Shown here: in pieces, positions 2,925-19,998 of the stretch | How positions within the stretch are numbered: position 1 is the stretch's first letter | Layout: the number at the start of each line of letters is the position of its first letter | IMG/VR virus record: IMGVR_UViG_3300032284_002500 | Coordinates: 1 to 21,037 of that record | Direction: 5' to 3' (one strand) | DNA length: 21,037 bases | Source: a virus | Notes under the pieces: generated by a model | The model's database searches: none | What the model saw: the letters and a program-made list of their open reading frames with translations, nothing else | What the model was told of the DNA's origin: nothing | Program-made: the position numbers and the translations under genes

Positions 2925-3772
2925 ACTTTCGTGGGGCACGAGCAATACCTGATCAAGAACAACGAACATTTGTTGAATCTTTAAATGTTAACTATTCATT
3001 GTATGACAGTTCTGTATCAGATAAGTTTATAAGTGCATTTACGCCATGGATAACAGGTGGTAGCAACAGCATCGTTGGGTTAGAAACGTTTAATAATATT
3101 AAACTTTGTCATGGCAGTGCACAGGCATTTGACCACTTCTATATAAAAAATCATACACGACGTTTTAGAACACTGACTGGTGATTTCATGTATCATCGTG
3201 CAGTTCTGAAGCATGGGTTTGAGCACTGTTATATTGAAGATGATCCACTTACATCATACGATGCAGTTATCCTAAGTTTACCATTTAGTGATTTTGGACG
3301 CACACATCACTCAACACACGATATACTTGATTGGTGTGATGAATTAAAAATACCTGTACTGATTGATATGGCTTATGTAGTCGCTGCAAAGAATATCAAC
3401 ATTGACTTATCTCACCCGTGTATTGATGCGGTTACATTCAGTATGAGTAAGTTCTTTTATGGTGCAGAACAACTACGAGTCGGACTACGCTATCAACGAG
3501 AAAACAGTGACGATGGTATAGATGTGTTCAATAGCGTCGGTATGAATAATAGAATAGACGTTGCTATTGCATATGAAATCATTAACAATTACGGTCCAGA
3601 TTATTTGTGGAATCGTTGGGGAAATGATTATGCACGTGTTATTAAGGAATTAAACTTAACTTCAACTGATACTATATTGTTTGGACTAACAGATGATAGT
3701 CAATATAAGAGTTACAATAGAGGCAATTTTACTACGAGATTATGTATAAGTGATTTAATACCAAATGTTTGA
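2921..3772 (+). CDS. PLP-dependent aminotransferase-like protein (fold type I)
   Basis: This 283-aa protein has the landmarks of fold-type-I PLP enzymes. CHGSAQAFDHF sits where the phosphate-binding GS(T)xA loop falls. IDMAY holds the Asp (149) that pairs with the pyridine nitrogen and a Tyr (152). SMSKFFYG has Lys177 in the Schiff-base position, and LRVGLRY follows. Family members are usually near 400 residues, so the C-terminal small domain is short here and activity may be altered. It lies between two glycosyltransferase paralogs, overlapping the first by ATGA and the second by 8 bases. An amino-sugar-forming or glycan-linked role is therefore plausible. Lys, Asp and loop are seen; the substrate is unknown. 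Confidence 0.65.
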   Translation: MNFRGARAIPDQEQRTFVESLNVNYSLYDSSVSDKFISAFTPWITGGSNSIVGLETFNNIKLCHGSAQAFDHFYIKNHTRRFRTLTGDFMYHRAVLKHGFEHCYIEDDPLTSYDAVILSLPFSDFGRTHHSTHDILDWCDELKIPVLIDMAYVVAAKNINIDLSHPCIDAVTFSMSKFFYGAEQLRVGLRYQRENSDDGIDVFNSVGMNNRIDVAIAYEIINNYGPDYLWNRWGNDYARVIKELNLTSTDTILFGLTDDSQYKSYNRGNFTTRLCISDLIPNV

Positions 3773-4886
3773 AATAAGAAAAGAAAATTATGCAATTATT
3801 ACACAAGATGACGGTTACAAAAGTAATCTATATCACCACCTTGACATCATTGACTTAACAGATAAGTTTGTATTTGTAGTTTACTTTGAAGATTTGATGC
3901 CAACGATAAACATGAATCCAGTATACCCAGATGTTAGTTGGATCATACACAACATAGACTTGTATCGGTCAATACATACTAATAAAAAGTTTATATTACT
4001 AATCGATGGTGGTTGGGAAGGTCCAACATATAAACATAATTTTAAGAAATCACTTGATAGGATTTGTGAAGAATGCAACATACAGTTATCGGATGTTGCA
4101 ATATATGGTGGGTCTCATGTTCAACCCGATTGTCCTATTAGAAACGCAATTAACATTGGGATGGCGTTTAGTAACAATTGCTTTAAGAATGCAGTTGGCA
4201 GTGAACTACCAAACAAACATTTTATAAGTTTAGCACGTGTTGCAAAACCACATCGTGTGTATGCAACAGTTGAAATGCTAGATCGTGAACTAGATAGATT
4301 TGGCTATATGAGTTTAGGCAGTGGATATTATAATAATCCTGGAGAAAACTTTGACTTGAGATTAGTTCCGCCAAAATATGAACATCGTGTTCCACTTTAT
4401 ATAGATGGTCCTGTAATTGGTGCTGCTGATCATCAACAACATGTTGCAGTTGATAGTAGATTTACTTCGTGCTTTGTAAACTTTGCAATGGAAACTAGTT
4501 ATGATGCAGAGATTAGTCCGTTTACATGGAACTCGCACATGATAAGCGAGAAGACAACCAAACCGTTTACATGGGGGCAGGTTCCTATATTTCTAACAGT
4601 CAGCAACAGAGTACAATATTTACGAGATTATGGATTTGATGTATTTGATGACATTATAGATCACGACAGTTATGATCTTGAGCAAAATCCAAAATTACGT
4701 ATCGTTAAGGCAGTAGACCAACTAGAAAAAATATGCCGTTGGGATATACAGCAGTGTGTCGATTATAAAGTTAAAAATATGGATAGATTCCTAACCAATC
4801 GTGATCTTGCTGAGCATTATGAACGATATAAGAAGTCAGATATTAGCTTTGCCAACTTAAAAAGAGTGCTTGACAGCTATACATAA
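3765..4886 (+). CDS. glycosyltransferase-like protein (copy 2)
   Basis: This 373-aa protein is a paralog of the one at 1830-2924. Shared blocks include HFISLARVAKPHR, VEMLDREL, FGYMSLGSGYY, METSYD, ISEKTTKPFTWGQVPIF (from residue 260) and DYGFDVFDDIIDHDSYD. The central Glu-Lys with the following Gly-Gln-Val-Pro is the best candidate for sugar-nucleotide binding in a GT-B-type fold. The first 130 residues diverge more, as expected for the acceptor-binding half. It starts inside the last 8 bases of the aminotransferase-like gene. Its 3' end contains a strong promoter for the next gene. It is probably a second transferase acting on a related acceptor; the target is unknown. Confidence 0.65.
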   Translation: MFEIRKENYAIITQDDGYKSNLYHHLDIIDLTDKFVFVVYFEDLMPTINMNPVYPDVSWIIHNIDLYRSIHTNKKFILLIDGGWEGPTYKHNFKKSLDRICEECNIQLSDVAIYGGSHVQPDCPIRNAINIGMAFSNNCFKNAVGSELPNKHFISLARVAKPHRVYATVEMLDRELDRFGYMSLGSGYYNNPGENFDLRLVPPKYEHRVPLYIDGPVIGAADHQQHVAVDSRFTSCFVNFAMETSYDAEISPFTWNSHMISEKTTKPFTWGQVPIFLTVSNRVQYLRDYGFDVFDDIIDHDSYDLEQNPKLRIVKAVDQLEKICRWDIQQCVDYKVKNMDRFLTNRDLAEHYERYKKSDISFANLKRVLDSYT

Positions 4887-6401: not shown

Positions 6402-6409
6402 AATAAATA
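6402..6409 (+). promoter_or_regulatory. possible T4-type late promoter element (one mismatch)
   Basis: AATAAATA differs from the T4 late element TATAAATA at one base. It lies in the short gap before the ATG at 6415, which has no Shine-Dalgarno site. With the usual late spacing the start site would fall at or beside that ATG. In AT-rich DNA this can occur by chance. Confidence 0.3.
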
Positions 6410-6414
6410 ATATA

Positions 6415-7446
6415 ATGCGTATTAGAGAAATTATTATTGAGGGTGGTTGGGATACTACCGTAACACAGAGCACCGTAATTAAGCCAGCCGTGGTTGCAAC
6501 TACGTTGAGCCAAATTGATCGTTTTGTTAATGACTTCAATGTGTGGCTGTCTGATCGTGGACTAGGACCAGTTAAACTTGGTCGTCCAACAGGCAGTGCA
6601 AGTTATTATAAAAAAGATATGGCACATGATCCTGAAAAGATTTATGGCGATGTTGACTTACAGATGATTGCACCACCAATTGAAGGTGCTACACACGGTC
6701 AATACTCTGGTAAGTGGAATGCTCTTGCAGACGAATTTGTTAAGGCACGTAATCCAGATTATGTTCATCCTGCAGAAAGCAAACCTGGACATCCAATTAT
6801 AAAGATTGGCGATAATGCATACGTACAGGTTGACTTTATGTGGCATACTCCAGAACTACAACAGTGGGGTGCTGCACGTGTAACACCTGAACACGGTGTT
6901 AAGGGATTGCTTATGGGTAATCTATTCAGTGTTCTCGGTGAACTTATGCATATGAGTATTCAACATGCTGGTGTTCAACTTAAGGTTCAGGATGGCAAGC
7001 GTGTGCCATTTAGTAAACAAAAGAATGTTGAAGTAAGAACCGTAACTAAAAACCCAAGAACATTCATACTTGATATATTCAATTATCAGTATAAAGAACT
7101 TATGGGCGATAATGCTCGCATTCCAAACATTGATGACCTACTAAAACACCACAGTGGTATCAACCCTGATAACGTTAAGGTAAGTGATATGGCTCAAGGC
7201 ATCATTGGTTTAGCCAACAGCTTTGAAGAAAACAACATGTTTAGTCGTGGCGACCTAGCACACTACAATAATGCTACTGAGTTCTTAGATGCATTTTTAC
7301 GTCGCTATGAAGAAAAAGCAATGGGCGATATTAATGCTACTAAACGTGATAAGGCTACTACTCCAGAGGCTAGAGCACGTGCTGATGCTGATAAGAAGAA
7401 AGTCCTAGATGGTTTGAAGATGGTTAAGGGCATTTTTGGGGCTTGA
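6415..7446 (+). CDS. nucleotidyltransferase-fold protein (pol beta type)
   Basis: This 343-aa protein has the three-part signature of the DNA polymerase beta-like nucleotidyltransferase superfamily. GS is at 60-61 (LGRPTGSASYY), DVD at 79-81 (YGDVDLQMI) carries the two metal-binding aspartates, and a third aspartate lies at 140 (YVQVDFMW). The C-terminal half is helical, with a charged Lys/Arg/Ala-rich end. Such proteins transfer a nucleotide to RNA, protein or a small molecule; which applies is not evident. The N-terminus MRIREIIIEGG resembles short leader sequences I recall at the front of unrelated large-phage proteins. All three catalytic acidic residues are seen, so it is probably active. 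Confidence 0.7.
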   Translation: MRIREIIIEGGWDTTVTQSTVIKPAVVATTLSQIDRFVNDFNVWLSDRGLGPVKLGRPTGSASYYKKDMAHDPEKIYGDVDLQMIAPPIEGATHGQYSGKWNALADEFVKARNPDYVHPAESKPGHPIIKIGDNAYVQVDFMWHTPELQQWGAARVTPEHGVKGLLMGNLFSVLGELMHMSIQHAGVQLKVQDGKRVPFSKQKNVEVRTVTKNPRTFILDIFNYQYKELMGDNARIPNIDDLLKHHSGINPDNVKVSDMAQGIIGLANSFEENNMFSRGDLAHYNNATEFLDAFLRRYEEKAMGDINATKRDKATTPEARARADADKKKVLDGLKMVKGIFGA

Positions 7447-7978: not shown

Positions 7979-8195
7979 TCGTCAGCGTAGACAGTTTAAC
8001 AGACGGTGGAAATATGTTGTTGACCTTTCACCTAAAGTAACATATTCCGATTTATACGATGATGGTGGTCCTATTGCGTGGGTGCACAATAATTATGGAT
8101 ATCACAAATATCAACTTGAAAATGGATATTGTTCTGTGAGATTTGATGATAAAGCGAAGGCAGTGCAGTTTGCATTGATGTGGAGTGGAACATAA
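7971..8195 (+). CDS. small basic phage protein with LMW tail
   Basis: This 74-aa protein has a strongly basic start (RQRRQFNRRWKY) and an ending of the recurring type, DDKAKAVQFALMWSGT. Phages often carry small proteins with this layout: an RRQFxRRW head and a 'DxAxxFxLxW' tail. No function is established that I know of. It overlaps the upstream phosphoesterase gene by 8 bases and the downstream gene by 11, so it belongs to one transcription unit with them. Confidence 0.75.
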   Translation: MNSRQRRQFNRRWKYVVDLSPKVTYSDLYDDGGPIAWVHNNYGYHKYQLENGYCSVRFDDKAKAVQFALMWSGT

Positions 8196-8412
8196 AACTC
8201 GAATTAAAGTTCATGACTTAGGTCCGACTCGCTGGCATATGAGTATTTGGTTTCGCCATCCGTATAATGGACAATTTGAAGAATGGATGAAGGATAATTA
8301 CCCAGACTGTTTATGCCGTTATTGTTTCAATTACGGAGACAGACCATATTATGAACTTCGTGGTGGTGATCCCGATGACCAAACAATGATTGCAATGAGG
8401 TGGGCAGAATGA
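8185..8412 (+). CDS. small phage protein with MRW tail (GTG start)
   Basis: This 75-aa frame begins at GTG 8185 inside the end of the previous gene. The next in-frame ATG would remove the conserved-looking RIKVHDLGPTRW segment. It contains WFRHPYNGQFEEWMKDNYPD and two cysteines, and ends DDQTMIAMRWAE, again the recurring tail type. Its TGA overlaps the ATG at 8409 of the disrupted dehydrogenase start. This is the same ATGA coupling used by the other genes in the run. Confidence 0.65.
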   Translation: MEHKTRIKVHDLGPTRWHMSIWFRHPYNGQFEEWMKDNYPDCLCRYCFNYGDRPYYELRGGDPDDQTMIAMRWAE

Positions 8413-8441
8413 AAATAGCGTGGATTGGTCTTGAAACATAA
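8409..8441 (+). pseudogene. broken 5' end of the nucleotide-sugar dehydrogenase gene
   Basis: The ATG at 8409 overlaps the upstream stop as ATGA and encodes MKIAWIGL, then ET and a stop. The intact gene at 9217 begins MKKIAWIGLGKLGLP, so the first eight codons here are homologous. The bases differ at synonymous positions (ATT GGT CTT against ATA GGA TTA). This looks like the original start of the dehydrogenase gene, cut after codon 8 when the homing endonuclease gene arrived. If joined to the downstream frame after GGTCTTG, the reading frame would continue correctly into GKLGLP. Confidence 0.8.
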
Positions 8442-8444
8442 ATA
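8437..8444 (+). promoter_or_regulatory. T4-type late promoter element before the homing endonuclease
   Basis: CATAAATA differs from TATAAATA by one base. It sits six bases ahead of the endonuclease ATG at 8450, placing the predicted late start site at or beside that codon. T4 homing endonuclease genes are known to have their own late promoters, so the position is sensible. No Shine-Dalgarno site is visible. Confidence 0.45.
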
Positions 8445-8449
8445 CATGT

Positions 8450-9220
8450 ATGAATAACACACCACATCAACCTTATACATACTTTATTGGATGGTCCAAA
8501 CAAAGAAAATTTTACTATGGCGTTCGCTATGCAATAAACTGTCATCCAGAAGATTTATGGGTAAAGTATTTTACTTCATCAGTAGCTGTCCAAGAAATGA
8601 GAATAAAATATGGCGAGCCAGATATTATACAGATTAGAAAAAAATTTTCCACAAAAGAACAAGCGATTAATTGGGAAGTAAAAGTATTAAAAAGAATGAA
8701 AGTCGTATTAAGAGAAGACTTTTTAAATAAAAATGATGTTCAAGCACCACCAATTAATGATAGAATAATGTCCGATGATACTAAACAAAAAATTAGAGAA
8801 AAAATTTCGGGAACAATTAGAAGCGACGAAACAAAAAATAAAATACGAGAAGCAAGAAAAAAACAAGATATGAGTTGGAGATTAAATTTTAAACATACTC
8901 CAGAAACCATACAAAAAATAAAAGATGCCAGAGCAAAACAAGTTATTACTGACGAAACAAAAATAAAAATGTCGTTGGCACAAAGTGGAGAGAAACATTC
9001 ACAATATGGAAAAAGTCGCAGTGATGAAACAAAAAATAAAATAAAAGAAAAATTAACAGGAAAAAAACAATCATTAGAAACTAAAAATAAAATATCATCT
9101 GCGTTAAGTAATAAAAAGAAAAAAGTTATCGAATGCCCGTTTTGTAAAAAAGTAGGCGGCGAACCTCAGATGAAAAGATGGCATTTTGACTTATGCAAAT
9201 TTAAAGCAGAGATGATATGA
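8450..9220 (+). CDS. GIY-YIG-type homing endonuclease with NUMOD3-like repeats
   Basis: This 256-aa protein has an N-terminal GIY-YIG-like nuclease domain: YTYFIGW (10-16), FYYGVRYA (21-28) with Arg26, and INWEVKVL with the probable catalytic Glu76. Residues 108-220 hold about five 'S/TDETKxKI' segments typical of the NUMOD3 DNA-binding module. The C-terminus has a zinc-finger-like CPFC...HFDLC arrangement (Cys229, Cys232, His245, Cys249). The gene is far richer in A-runs than its neighbours, a sign of separate ancestry. It lies between a broken and an intact copy of the dehydrogenase 5' end, and its TGA overlaps the intact ATG at 9217. It would cut an uninterrupted allele and spread itself by recombination. 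Confidence 0.85.
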   Translation: MNNTPHQPYTYFIGWSKQRKFYYGVRYAINCHPEDLWVKYFTSSVAVQEMRIKYGEPDIIQIRKKFSTKEQAINWEVKVLKRMKVVLREDFLNKNDVQAPPINDRIMSDDTKQKIREKISGTIRSDETKNKIREARKKQDMSWRLNFKHTPETIQKIKDARAKQVITDETKIKMSLAQSGEKHSQYGKSRSDETKNKIKEKLTGKKQSLETKNKISSALSNKKKKVIECPFCKKVGGEPQMKRWHFDLCKFKAEMI

Positions 9221-10377
9221 AAAAAATTGCGTGGATAGGATTAGGAAAACTTGGTTTGCCATGTGCGTCAGTCATCAGTAAAAAATTTGAAGTTGTTGGA
9301 TATGATATTAATATAGGCATTGAAGCACCATTCAGGATAGCAGATACGATTGAAGATTGTATAAACGGCGCAGACATAATATTTGTTGCAGTGCCTACGC
9401 CACACGCACCTGAATATAGTGGCGATAAGCCTAGCAGTCACCTAGCACCACGAGATTTTGATTATAGTATTGTAAAATCAGTTCTTACTAAGTTATCGCA
9501 GTATCGTAACAAAGACCAACACGTGGTGTTAGTCAGTACCGTGATGCCTAGAACTATACGACGTGAGTTTGCAAAGTTAATACCAGATTTAGTTTACAAT
9601 CCTTCACTTATTGCCACTGGTACAGTTGCTGAAGATTTTGTTAATCCTGATATTATTATCTTAGGCAATACAGATGGCAAGAATAACCCTGCTATAGAAA
9701 AACTATTCAACATGTATGGAAACGTATGCCATCGTCAGATTAGGTATACAGTTGGAACATGGGAAGAAGCAGAGATAACAAAGATATCTTACAATGTATT
9801 CGCTACGATGAAGGTAAACTTTGTTAATACGCTTAATGATATTTCACGTGGCGTGGGGCATAGCAATATTGACGTAATTACAAATAATCTATTCGCTGCT
9901 AGCAAACGTTTACATAGCCCCGATTACATGACTAAGGCTGGTATGGGTATTGCAGGTCCATGTCACCCACGTGATATAAATGCTATGGAATGGTTAGTAG
10001 AGAATCTACATCTTGGCTATGAAACATTTGGCGAGATGATGCATGTGCGTGAGGTTCATGCAAACAATCTTGCAAGAAAATTATGTAGCTACGGAAAAGA
10101 GATTGTGATACTCGGTATTGGATTTAAGAAAAACTTACCAGATACCGATGGAAGTTATAGTTTACTAGTTGCACATTACCTAAAGAAGTTAGGGTGCACA
10201 GTTCACATTCATGATCCACTTAATTCTCAGATATATTACAGTGAAAACCCATGCGTATATCTACTATCTCAGCCACATAGTTGGATATCAGACTATGACT
10301 TTGCTGATGGTAGCACTATTGTTGACCCTTGGAGAACTGGGTTGCAAATTACAAACTGCACGGTAGTAAAATACTAA
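9217..10377 (+). CDS. UDP-glucose/GDP-mannose-type nucleotide-sugar 6-dehydrogenase
   Basis: This 386-aa protein has the order of the nucleotide-sugar dehydrogenase family. An N-terminal NAD-binding GLGKLG (residues 8-13) is followed by VYNPSLIATGTVAEDF, then AEITKISYNVFATMKVNFVN with Lys189. GPCHPRDINAM has the catalytic Cys249, and the C-terminal Rossmann-like domain includes ILGIGFKKNLPDTDGS. Such enzymes oxidise the C6 hydroxyl of UDP-glucose, GDP-mannose or a related nucleotide sugar to the uronic acid in two NAD-dependent steps. All key residues are present, so it should be active. It shares ATGA with the homing endonuclease and TAATG with the glycosyltransferase-like gene. The nucleotide sugar used cannot be read from the sequence. 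Confidence 0.85.
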   Translation: MKKIAWIGLGKLGLPCASVISKKFEVVGYDINIGIEAPFRIADTIEDCINGADIIFVAVPTPHAPEYSGDKPSSHLAPRDFDYSIVKSVLTKLSQYRNKDQHVVLVSTVMPRTIRREFAKLIPDLVYNPSLIATGTVAEDFVNPDIIILGNTDGKNNPAIEKLFNMYGNVCHRQIRYTVGTWEEAEITKISYNVFATMKVNFVNTLNDISRGVGHSNIDVITNNLFAASKRLHSPDYMTKAGMGIAGPCHPRDINAMEWLVENLHLGYETFGEMMHVREVHANNLARKLCSYGKEIVILGIGFKKNLPDTDGSYSLLVAHYLKKLGCTVHIHDPLNSQIYYSENPCVYLLSQPHSWISDYDFADGSTIVDPWRTGLQITNCTVVKY

Positions 10378-11537
10378 TGTTACATTTTTTGTTTAGATCA
10401 CAGGGAAGAAAGCAGGGTCGGTTTAACCTAACCTATAATTTATTTGAAGAGATGTATAAAGACGATAACGTTCTTTTTATTGATTTTCAAAAAGCTGATA
10501 TGTTTTTTGATTTTGAAACAACAACAGATAAGATTTATTACTTTGTATCCAAAGCAGCCAAGACTAAAAAGTATTCTAGAGTTCTCCTAACTGATACTTG
10601 GGAATCTTTTAGCTATGACCTGACGATTGAAATAGCACGTAGGTTAATAGACGATGGACATTTTGGCGCAGAACAAATATCCGTAATGTTCTTCCTGTAT
10701 CCGTTTAGTGAAAAATATATAAATGAGTTCAAAGATTTAGGAATAACGGCGTTATACCATGTCAATTATTTTTTTCCAAGAATCTATTTCTTTAATCAAG
10801 ACGTATATAATACACCGTCCAGTGAAAGAAACTTCCTAGCATTAAACAACGTAGACACTGTTGCCAGACGGTACATGATTTCACAGCTACATGAATCTGG
10901 TATCAATAGTGGTATTAGTTGGGGTGGATCAAATGAGATTCGTGCTCCCAATGATTCATTTTTTAGAAATAAAAACTCACTGCGACTTACTAGAGATTTT
11001 AGTGAATGCTGCGATGAGGATACACTGAATCTTATTAACAAACACAGTGACTGGTTTAGTGAACCACATCGTCTAGATGAGTTTGACGATCACAGTGATG
11101 ATCGTTATACTATTAACAATCCATTTCTTAAGTATCCGATTAATTTGGTTACGGAGACACGAACACAGCCTATCTATACGGACAATTTACCATTTCCACG
11201 AGACGTATATTCACGTGACTATCTACATGTTAGTGAGAAAACCGTAAAAGTTTTAATGACTGAACAGATATTCTTTCTCTATAGTAGTATGGGCATATTA
11301 AAATATTTGCAGGATTTTGGGTTTAAAACCTTTGGCGATTATATTGATGAAAGCTATGATAGTGAGCCAAATTGGACAGTTCGTGCACAAAAAATTGCAA
11401 CTAATATCAAGACACTAATGAATATGCCAGAAGACCGTTGGCAAAAACTATTTGCAGCTACACGTCCTATCGTAAAACACAACCGTGAGTTTATTGAAGA
11501 TTTTACACTTACTGCACGATATATTGTAAAATTATAA
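10377..11537 (+). CDS. glycosyltransferase-like protein (copy 3, divergent)
   Basis: From the ATG at 10377 (TAATG overlap) this encodes 386 residues. An in-frame start at 10329 would overlap the dehydrogenase by about 50 bases and is rejected. The C-terminal half has VSEKTVKVLMTEQIFFL (from residue 285) followed by YLQDFGFKTFGDYIDESYD. This is the same architecture as the proteins at 1830 and 3765, though the KPFxWGQVP core is altered to KVLMTEQIF. It is a distant relative and probably GT-B-like. Its position directly after a nucleotide-sugar dehydrogenase suggests it uses the uronic acid product or works in the same glycan pathway. Confidence 0.6.
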   Translation: MLHFLFRSQGRKQGRFNLTYNLFEEMYKDDNVLFIDFQKADMFFDFETTTDKIYYFVSKAAKTKKYSRVLLTDTWESFSYDLTIEIARRLIDDGHFGAEQISVMFFLYPFSEKYINEFKDLGITALYHVNYFFPRIYFFNQDVYNTPSSERNFLALNNVDTVARRYMISQLHESGINSGISWGGSNEIRAPNDSFFRNKNSLRLTRDFSECCDEDTLNLINKHSDWFSEPHRLDEFDDHSDDRYTINNPFLKYPINLVTETRTQPIYTDNLPFPRDVYSRDYLHVSEKTVKVLMTEQIFFLYSSMGILKYLQDFGFKTFGDYIDESYDSEPNWTVRAQKIATNIKTLMNMPEDRWQKLFAATRPIVKHNREFIEDFTLTARYIVKL

Positions 11538-18912: not shown

Positions 18913-19206
18913 TTAACTGCTCTGGACAACTGCAATAGCTGTAGGCGATACATAACCAACAGCAACAACACTTACTTCTGCGACACTGGTATTAGTAATA
19001 AATGCTAGTTTATTTCCTAAACCTTCCATATTAATGTAACGTGTTGTGCCAGCAGGTATAACGTCACAATTGCCAATATAGGCAGTTGGGCTAACCCCAA
19101 CAGCATAATGGACGCTTGCATTTGCGGTTACCTTTGCTTTAGTGCTTGTGATGGCACTACTTTGGCTACTTGAAGTAGTAGCGTTAATAATCTGTGCAGA
19201 TGGCAT
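18913..19206 (-). CDS. presumed small structural protein, first gene of the late operon
   Basis: This 97-aa protein is rich in Ala, Ser, Thr and Val, with an all-beta look (HYAVGVSPTAYIGNCDVIPA, then RYINMEGLGNKLAFITNTS). This composition is typical of head-decoration or neck/tail accessory proteins. AGAGGA precedes the ATG at good spacing, and an exact T4-type late promoter element lies just upstream (19228-19235). As the promoter-proximal late gene it should be abundant. Decoration protein is a guess from composition and position only. Confidence 0.7.
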   Translation of the reverse strand: MPSAQIINATTSSSQSSAITSTKAKVTANASVHYAVGVSPTAYIGNCDVIPAGTTRYINMEGLGNKLAFITNTSVAEVSVVAVGYVSPTAIAVVQSS

Positions 19207-19227
19207 CTTTTTTATCCTCTATACCAG

Positions 19228-19235
19228 TATTTATA
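19228..19235 (-). promoter_or_regulatory. T4-type late promoter (exact TATAAATA)
   Basis: On the minus strand this reads GTATAAATACTGG, containing the exact T4 late element. Its predicted start lies about 15 bases before the Shine-Dalgarno and ATG of the 97-aa gene. It is the only exact copy I noticed in the window and implies a gp55-like late sigma factor elsewhere in the genome. Confidence 0.75.
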
Positions 19236-19317: not shown

Positions 19318-19998
19318 ATGGCGACCGCTGCACAACTTAGCAAAAACAACCAAAATGCTCAGATTTGGACAAATTGGGGTATTAATACTGAAAAAACCTT
19401 TCAAACTTGCACAGAAGATGTGTTTGAAACGGTAAAACTGGCTTATCCCCAGTATAAGTTCAAGCATACCAAGATTATTACTAATAAAGAACTACTTGAT
19501 AACTTGATTGAGTATGCTCCGCTTCTGTCGGAGTCTGCAGTTCACAATGGTCGCAATGGCAATAGTCGGCCTGATGGTGGGGTCATCTATGTAGAGTGCA
19601 AGGACGGCTCGTGGATGATTGTGCTTATTGGTGAAAACAAGCACCAAGCTGCCAATGGTGGAAACGCTATTGAACGAGCGTCAAAGAACATTGAGTTCTT
19701 TAAAAACATGTTAATTGAGTATGATTATCTTCCATACCATCTTAACATCAATGGTGATATTGCCATAAAGAAAGAAGATGATTCTTATGAATACGGCACA
19801 CACTTTGACCGTATTACCCAAGCTGGCGGGTTTATGCCTGTAAATACAGTGCACGTTAAGAGCAACCCAGCCACACCACGCATTCGACCATTTACCGTAA
19901 CGGTAAACGTTGAGTTTGATTATGCAGGTGTCAAGGATACCAGTTTGAAAATTATCGAAGAATCATTGGATTACCTCAAGCATGTTAATAAACTTTAA
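19318..19998 (+). CDS. EcoRI-family type II restriction endonuclease
   Basis: This 226-aa protein matches EcoRI in order and motif. SRPDGGVIYVECKD contains Asp86, and the strand IVLIGENKHQ contains Glu106 and Lys108; these correspond to the EcoRI catalytic Asp91, Glu111 and Lys113. GGNAIERASKNI (114-125) corresponds to the EcoRI segment GNAIERSHKNI, whose Glu and Arg contact the recognition bases. DRITQAGGFMPVNT parallels EcoRI DRLTAANYGMPINS. EcoRI is 277 residues; the gap lies mainly between the catalytic lysine and GNAIER, where EcoRI has an inner arm of roughly 25 residues. The catalytic set is intact, so cleavage activity is likely. GAATTC or a close relative is the expected site, by inference. 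The methyltransferase gene overlaps the 3' end by 17 bases. Confidence 0.88.
   Translation: MATAAQLSKNNQNAQIWTNWGINTEKTFQTCTEDVFETVKLAYPQYKFKHTKIITNKELLDNLIEYAPLLSESAVHNGRNGNSRPDGGVIYVECKDGSWMIVLIGENKHQAANGGNAIERASKNIEFFKNMLIEYDYLPYHLNINGDIAIKKEDDSYEYGTHFDRITQAGGFMPVNTVHVKSNPATPRIRPFTVTVNVEFDYAGVKDTSLKIIEESLDYLKHVNKL

Follow-up and report, generated by a model that had tools for sequence, protein, structure and literature searches.

A truncated dehydrogenase start beside a phage homing endonuclease gene as the probable footprint of a cassette carrying a recoded gene start

Mobile ORFs (mORFs) of fungal mitochondria form gene hybrids, as described for atp6, atp9, cox2 and nad3 of Glomus and for atp6 of Allomyces macrogynus (PMC3630166). 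The viral locus analysed here resembles them in that an endonuclease ORF is inserted into a conserved gene together with a foreign version of part of that gene, which replaces the native end, the latter being displaced but retained as a fragment (PMC3630166). It differs from them in that the phage cassette replaces the 5′ end of the gene, whereas the mitochondrial mORFs replace the 3′ end, and in that the replacement start opens an ORF of its own and overlaps the stop codon of the homing endonuclease gene (HEG). By analogy, the phage arrangement can be regarded as the 5′-end mirror image of the mitochondrial 3′-end replacement. Mitochondrial elements that carry a duplicated segment of the host gene are also comparable, in that they are linked to partial gene replacement and a cycle of gain and loss is proposed for them; those elements, however, are mitochondrial and discussed as introns.

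Among phages, the nrdA/mobE locus of Aeh1 is reportedly a gene split by the insertion of an endonuclease gene. Split phage genes, nrdA/mobE included, are covered in PMC2988022. As in nrdA/mobE and in gp17 of phage PX29, the HEG of our locus is inserted within conserved coding sequence; unlike those two genes, which were left in two pieces, the invaded nucleotide-sugar dehydrogenase gene (DH) has been rebuilt as a continuous frame, with a short stub left over. With the free-standing HEGs of T4 (Seg and Mob, intronless homing; PMC2988022) the locus shares a probable GIY-YIG enzyme without an intron, co-conversion of the flanks and a late-promoter-like element upstream; such elements are noted in that review for enzymes encoded in introns, and one is predicted for segB. 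Free-standing HEGs cut away from their own insertion site, unlike intron-encoded ones (PMC2988022). Our locus departs from the free-standing genes of T4 in that the insertion lies inside coding sequence at the inferred target, the gene being repaired by the 5′ end that the element carries. No phage report of a stub, a HEG and a recoded start in combination was found in an open-access library, from which most subscription papers are missing.

The window, that is, the whole stretch of DNA that was analysed, is the 21,037-base virus record IMGVR_UViG_3300032284_002500. We consider it very probable, from comparison of its sequence with those of related loci, that the window has received a homing cassette made up of a late-promoter-like element, a GIY-YIG/NUMOD3 HEG and a synonymously recoded 5′ end of DH. 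The features concerned are as follows:

8185–8412, + strand: gene for a 75-aa protein, function not assigned; the upstream neighbour, with an ATGA overlap with the stub.
8409–8432, + strand: stub MKIAWIGL, the first eight codons of the resident DH; the equivalent stub of the occupied loci L010 and L090 corresponds to the uninterrupted start of L034.
8433–8441, + strand: junction GAA ACA TAA, which ends the stub frame within the HEG leader.
8437–8444, + strand: CATAAATA, an octamer resembling T4-type late promoters, at −13 to −6 of the HEG ATG.
8450–9220, + strand: GIY-YIG/NUMOD3 homing endonuclease, 256 aa, probable from Pfam, PHROG and fold matches.
9134–9196, + strand: C-terminal zinc-finger-like segment of the HEG (CPFC...H...C), recognized in the alignment and missing from several sisters.
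9217–10377, + strand: intact gene of the UDP-glucose/GDP-mannose dehydrogenase family, 386 aa (Pfam PF03721/PF00984/PF03720).
9217–9276, + strand: differently spelled DH 5′ end of ~60 nt, presumably HEG-borne, its extent taken from the pairs L010/L090 and L105/L109.
6402–6415, 8437–8450 and 19206–19235: ATAAATA sites with their ORF starts; every copy of the motif lies just ahead of an ORF start.

The first-pass annotation, made from the window alone, had described an ATG at 8409 that encodes MKIAWIGL and soon stops, and an intact DH start at 9217. Both descriptions hold. The stub reads ATG AAA ATA GCG TGG ATT GGT CTT GAA ACA TAA (MKIAWIGLET-stop, with the stop at 8439–8441), so that its ORF comprises eight DH codons and two junction codons, and the ORF at 9217–10377 begins MKKIAWIGLGKLG. 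The reported difference between the two starts at synonymous bases is equally real, since I-G-L is spelled ATT GGT CTT in the 8409 copy and ATA GGA TTA in the 9217 copy while the protein is the same. A stub-like match as high as that between the 100 nt preceding the window HEG and the N-terminus of the downstream DH was obtained in none of 1000 dinucleotide shuffles. Both ATGs were also said to overlap the preceding gene through the same ATGA, which is true of the window (the 8409 ATG with ORF 8185–8412, the 9217 ATG with ORF 8450–9220), but the upstream overlap is not conserved, a gap preceding the stub in L010. The end of the HEG overlaps the start of DH in all twelve loci of this type described below.

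An alignment was needed to find relatives of the window DH, because a single-sequence search of viral contigs with it returned nothing; the alignment-based scan yielded L010, L034 and L011 as the nearest DH loci. No close DNA relatives of the window were found among named phages, nor any match there to the 75-aa protein, whose homologues in L010, L011 and L034 are 55–60% identical and lie upstream of DH. The prediction that in HEG-free relatives this gene would directly precede an uninterrupted DH was borne out in part: the DH start of L034 is uninterrupted, but the two genes are not adjacent, another ORF separating them in both uninterrupted relatives, L034 and L011.

A scan with the HEG alignment identified twelve distinct loci in which a HEG precedes DH, the window and L010 included. 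In every one of them a DH stub lies upstream of the HEG and a complete DH start downstream, and the stub matches were reached by 0–16 of 1000 shuffles per locus. The best upstream match in 128 HEG-free DH loci scored 27, against 38 for the window and 24–45 for the twelve occupied loci. Ten of the twelve stubs outscore all 128 controls; those of L091 (24) and L096 (26) fall inside the control range and, their scores being below its maximum, are weaker evidence, recognized by eye from where they lie and how they read. Two consecutive DH stubs precede the HEG in L095 and L101. This suggests the entry of a stub-bearing cassette into a fresh gene, and also repeated or non-homologous joining of the left end.

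The HEG and the 5′ end of DH appear to move as a cassette, the body of the gene being resident, since the blocks shared by occupied loci end ~60 nt into DH and the bodies diverge. L010 and L090 are ~99% identical from the upstream genes, through the stub and the HEG, to a point ~60 nt into DH; past this point their DH bodies are 72–96% identical by 50-nt window, mostly 78–90%. L105 and L109 share a block that begins shortly before the stub and extends 62 nt into DH, with 95–100% identity in each 60-nt window (98.5% overall in the HEG gene); outside this block identity is mostly 47–67% on the left and mostly 67–88% in the DH body. The breakpoints ~60 nt into DH in these two pairs delimit the flanking tract inherited with the HEG. 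A similar discordance is seen in L097, where the first 30 nt from the start of the motif are 97% identical (29/30 nt) to the occupied L104 and 63–80% identical to the uninterrupted L171–L175, while the DH body is closer to the HEG-free L171–L175. All these relatives are metagenomic contigs, and shared blocks of 97–100% identity could promote chimeric assembly, yet both contexts recur in several samples, L105 and L109 each being present in several contigs from different samples. Empty and occupied alleles of the one site are scattered over the DH tree, L034 and L171–L175 being empty. When mapped on a tree of 147 DH bodies, occupancy of the site by the HEG requires at least ten changes, a figure to be taken as a guide because the tree was quickly built and contains several long branches.

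These data bear on ordinary phage mosaicism, in which homologous recombination would have swapped the region with the HEG as a passive passenger. T4-like phages recombine freely, and other unrelated ORFs also occupy the intergenic region upstream of DH, in L034 and L011, both of which speak for such an exchange. We nevertheless find it improbable, because a single HEG family is present at the same codons in many DH lineages, each of which has a similarly truncated stub, and because the block shared by L105 and L109 has an end on either side of the HEG.

The relationship between the two starts is clearest in L010, which has the arrangement of the window: a stub, MKISMIGLGNK, then the HEG and then MNNFKIAVIGLGKLG. 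L034 has no HEG, and its DH begins ATGAAAATATCAATGATTGGTTTGGGC, which corresponds to the stub of L010 and L090 at 26 of 27 nt. Over the stretch that runs from shortly before the motif to the end of GKLG, the working start of L010 is identical to L034 at 22 of 36 nt, and beyond the start the two genes are 82–90% identical over most of their length. As L034 matches the stub of L010 closely and its working start poorly, it is the stub of L010 that represents the resident start, its working start having a different source. The proposal that the HEG arrived with its own DH 5′ end, stranding the resident codons, is therefore supported by relatives, both by L034 set against L010/L090 and by the pairs of occupied loci.

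Local tandem or target-site duplication, with copies that drifted apart after an ordinary insertion and nothing foreign brought in, would account for the fact that the stub and the intact copy of the window both encode KIAWIGL, their best ungapped stretch being 15 of 17 nt. The first-pass annotation had already set a simple target duplication aside, and the relatives make this origin very improbable: it is contradicted for L010/L090, whose stub is the start of L034, the second start of L010 being far more diverged than the rest of the gene. Moreover, the second start is common to other HEG-bearing phages and not to HEG-free neighbours, and the incoming starts of the window and L010 share ATAGGATTAGGAAAA (9235–9249 in the window) despite DH proteins that are only about 54% identical. 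Because the uninterrupted allele of the window itself was not found among the relatives, the nearest DHs being 54% identical, the course of its own invasion is reconstructed from theirs.

Phage homing endonucleases are often intron-encoded, but the joining of the stub to the downstream gene by a group I intron or by translational bypass is scarcely credible, as Rfam gave chance-level matches only in 8000–9700, with no group I core or other relevant intron RNA, several sister stubs lack a start codon, and the product would have residues 1–8 duplicated because the downstream ORF is complete alone, with its own start.

The cassette reading is further illuminated by the spelling of the incoming starts. 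Both Gly codons of GxG are GGA or GGG in 9 of 11 incoming starts compared with 20 of 135 HEG-free genes (p=6e-6, in a test that ignores relatedness), and the Leu of KLG is TTA in 10 of 11 compared with 34 of 135 (p=2e-5, with the same disregard of relatedness); the window has CTT where the other ten have TTA. Such recoding fits a protection of the incoming start from self-cleavage. Cassette-type starts are also present in three loci with no recognisable HEG hit, namely MKKYKLGF in L188 and MKKCKVGF in L198 and L239. In L188 the resident leader is joined to the apparent last bases of a HEG, in L198 the end of the upstream nadE is fused to the start of DH, and L239 retains a C-terminal HEG fragment. 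We infer from these junctions that the three are vacated sites, from which the HEG was lost while the start that came with it was kept. Given uninterrupted, occupied and apparently vacated relatives, the broken stub can be taken as the footprint of the spread of the HEG between viruses, and as the three kinds of allele can be compared, the cycle of invasion can be reconstructed and tested.

The HEG would most likely cut an uninterrupted DH in a co-infecting phage, within the conserved stretch close to the start of the gene that encodes GxGKLG, and repair from the cassette-bearing genome would copy in the HEG together with the recoded start. At the right junction the recoded start would join the resident body in frame ~60 nt into the gene, and on the left the broken end, with the resident ATG and the first 8–9 codons, would be joined before the HEG and become the stub. 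The recoded start would restore the enzyme and probably make the site resistant to cutting.

The protein encoded by the window HEG contains NUMOD3 (PF07460, Pfam E=2.6e-20) and matches the homing endonucleases of PHROG 314 (E=2.9e-23); NUMOD3 DNA-binding repeats are present in all 11 aligned members of the family. Its assignment to GIY-YIG is likely, not proved, given weak profile and fold scores. A model derived from the 11 members has an N-terminal beta-beta-alpha-beta-alpha order, at moderate confidence, and its three best fold matches in the PDB are all the catalytic domain of I-TevI, with probabilities of 0.93–0.99 and weak E-values (0.03–0.12). The SegE_GIY-YIG profile gave a weak match in 8 of the 11 members, the window protein not among them, and a PDB sequence search with the HEG profile returned nothing useful. 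Members of the same family lie in L120, L133 and L138 between apparent halves of one helicase-like gene, as judged by eye from the flanking translation. In Aeromonas phage PX29 (L250, 1305–4294) the large terminase subunit, gp17, is annotated in two pieces with a putative N- and C-intein, and this locus also carries a GIY-YIG endonuclease of the family.

The octamer upstream of the HEG is a mark of late promoters in T4. Since the full octamer TATAAATA has one exact copy in the window, its 7-nt core ATAAATA was used as the promoter marker. The core occurs three times in the window, compared with ~12 expected, each copy just upstream of an ORF start. It lies 8–13 nt before the HEG ATG in 11 of the 12 occupied loci, the window included, and in L101 too if the next ATG is the start; several stubs run straight into the octamer. 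If the element is a T4-type late promoter, the spacing at 8450, and similarly at 6415, would produce a nearly leaderless transcript.

I-TevI binds an operator and thereby represses its own promoter (PMC2988022). By analogy, the stub might be an operator that the HEG binds without cutting and through which it represses its own promoter, a role that we regard as unlikely; binding without cleavage is conceivable because the stub, which abuts the octamer, retains the left half of the inferred target but lacks what follows the GxG codons. Weak support comes from the stubs of L093, L097, L104, L105 and L109, which have no in-frame start codon, and from two locus pairs in which the 21-nt stub, untranslated there, shows 1 difference in 21 compared with ~20% at four-fold sites of the HEG (P about 0.06 each). 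A function of the stub as left homology arm is a suggestion that fits equally well. Were the operator reading true, each insertion would build its own off-switch from the gene that it invades. A conserved in-frame fusion of stub and HEG was also considered and rejected, the frame being shared in the inner stub of L095 and in L097, L104 and L109, and not in L093, L105, L096 or the window.

A selfish endonuclease gene directed at conserved coding sequence has to spare the function of the gene that it invades. The solutions familiar from phages are introns, inteins and split genes; the cassette instead brings a recoded replacement for the piece that it breaks. To our knowledge, fungal mitochondria and engineered gene drives are the only other settings in which this strategy is known. 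Through it, distant phages can also exchange the opening codons of a metabolic gene. The number of independent cassettes is small, and the combination of stub, endonuclease and recoded start makes a simple rule for finding more. The architecture of stub, HEG and start was not found at gp6 of Acidovorax phage ACP17. In L131 (2950–3624 and downstream) a NUMOD3 HEG follows an RNFYFDK stub and the octamer GATAAATA and precedes an intact gene that starts MRNFYFENYG (score 32); this single case among the screened loci may be the same device acting on another gene.

Elsewhere in the window, three proteins (1827–2924, 3765–4886 and 10377–11537) have no Pfam or PHROG match; they look mutually related, since their tblastn matches in related loci fall on the same stretches, and are possibly glycosyltransferases. 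A 226-aa protein encoded at 19318–19998 on the + strand matches the EcoRI restriction endonuclease family (PF02963, E=1.9e-17).
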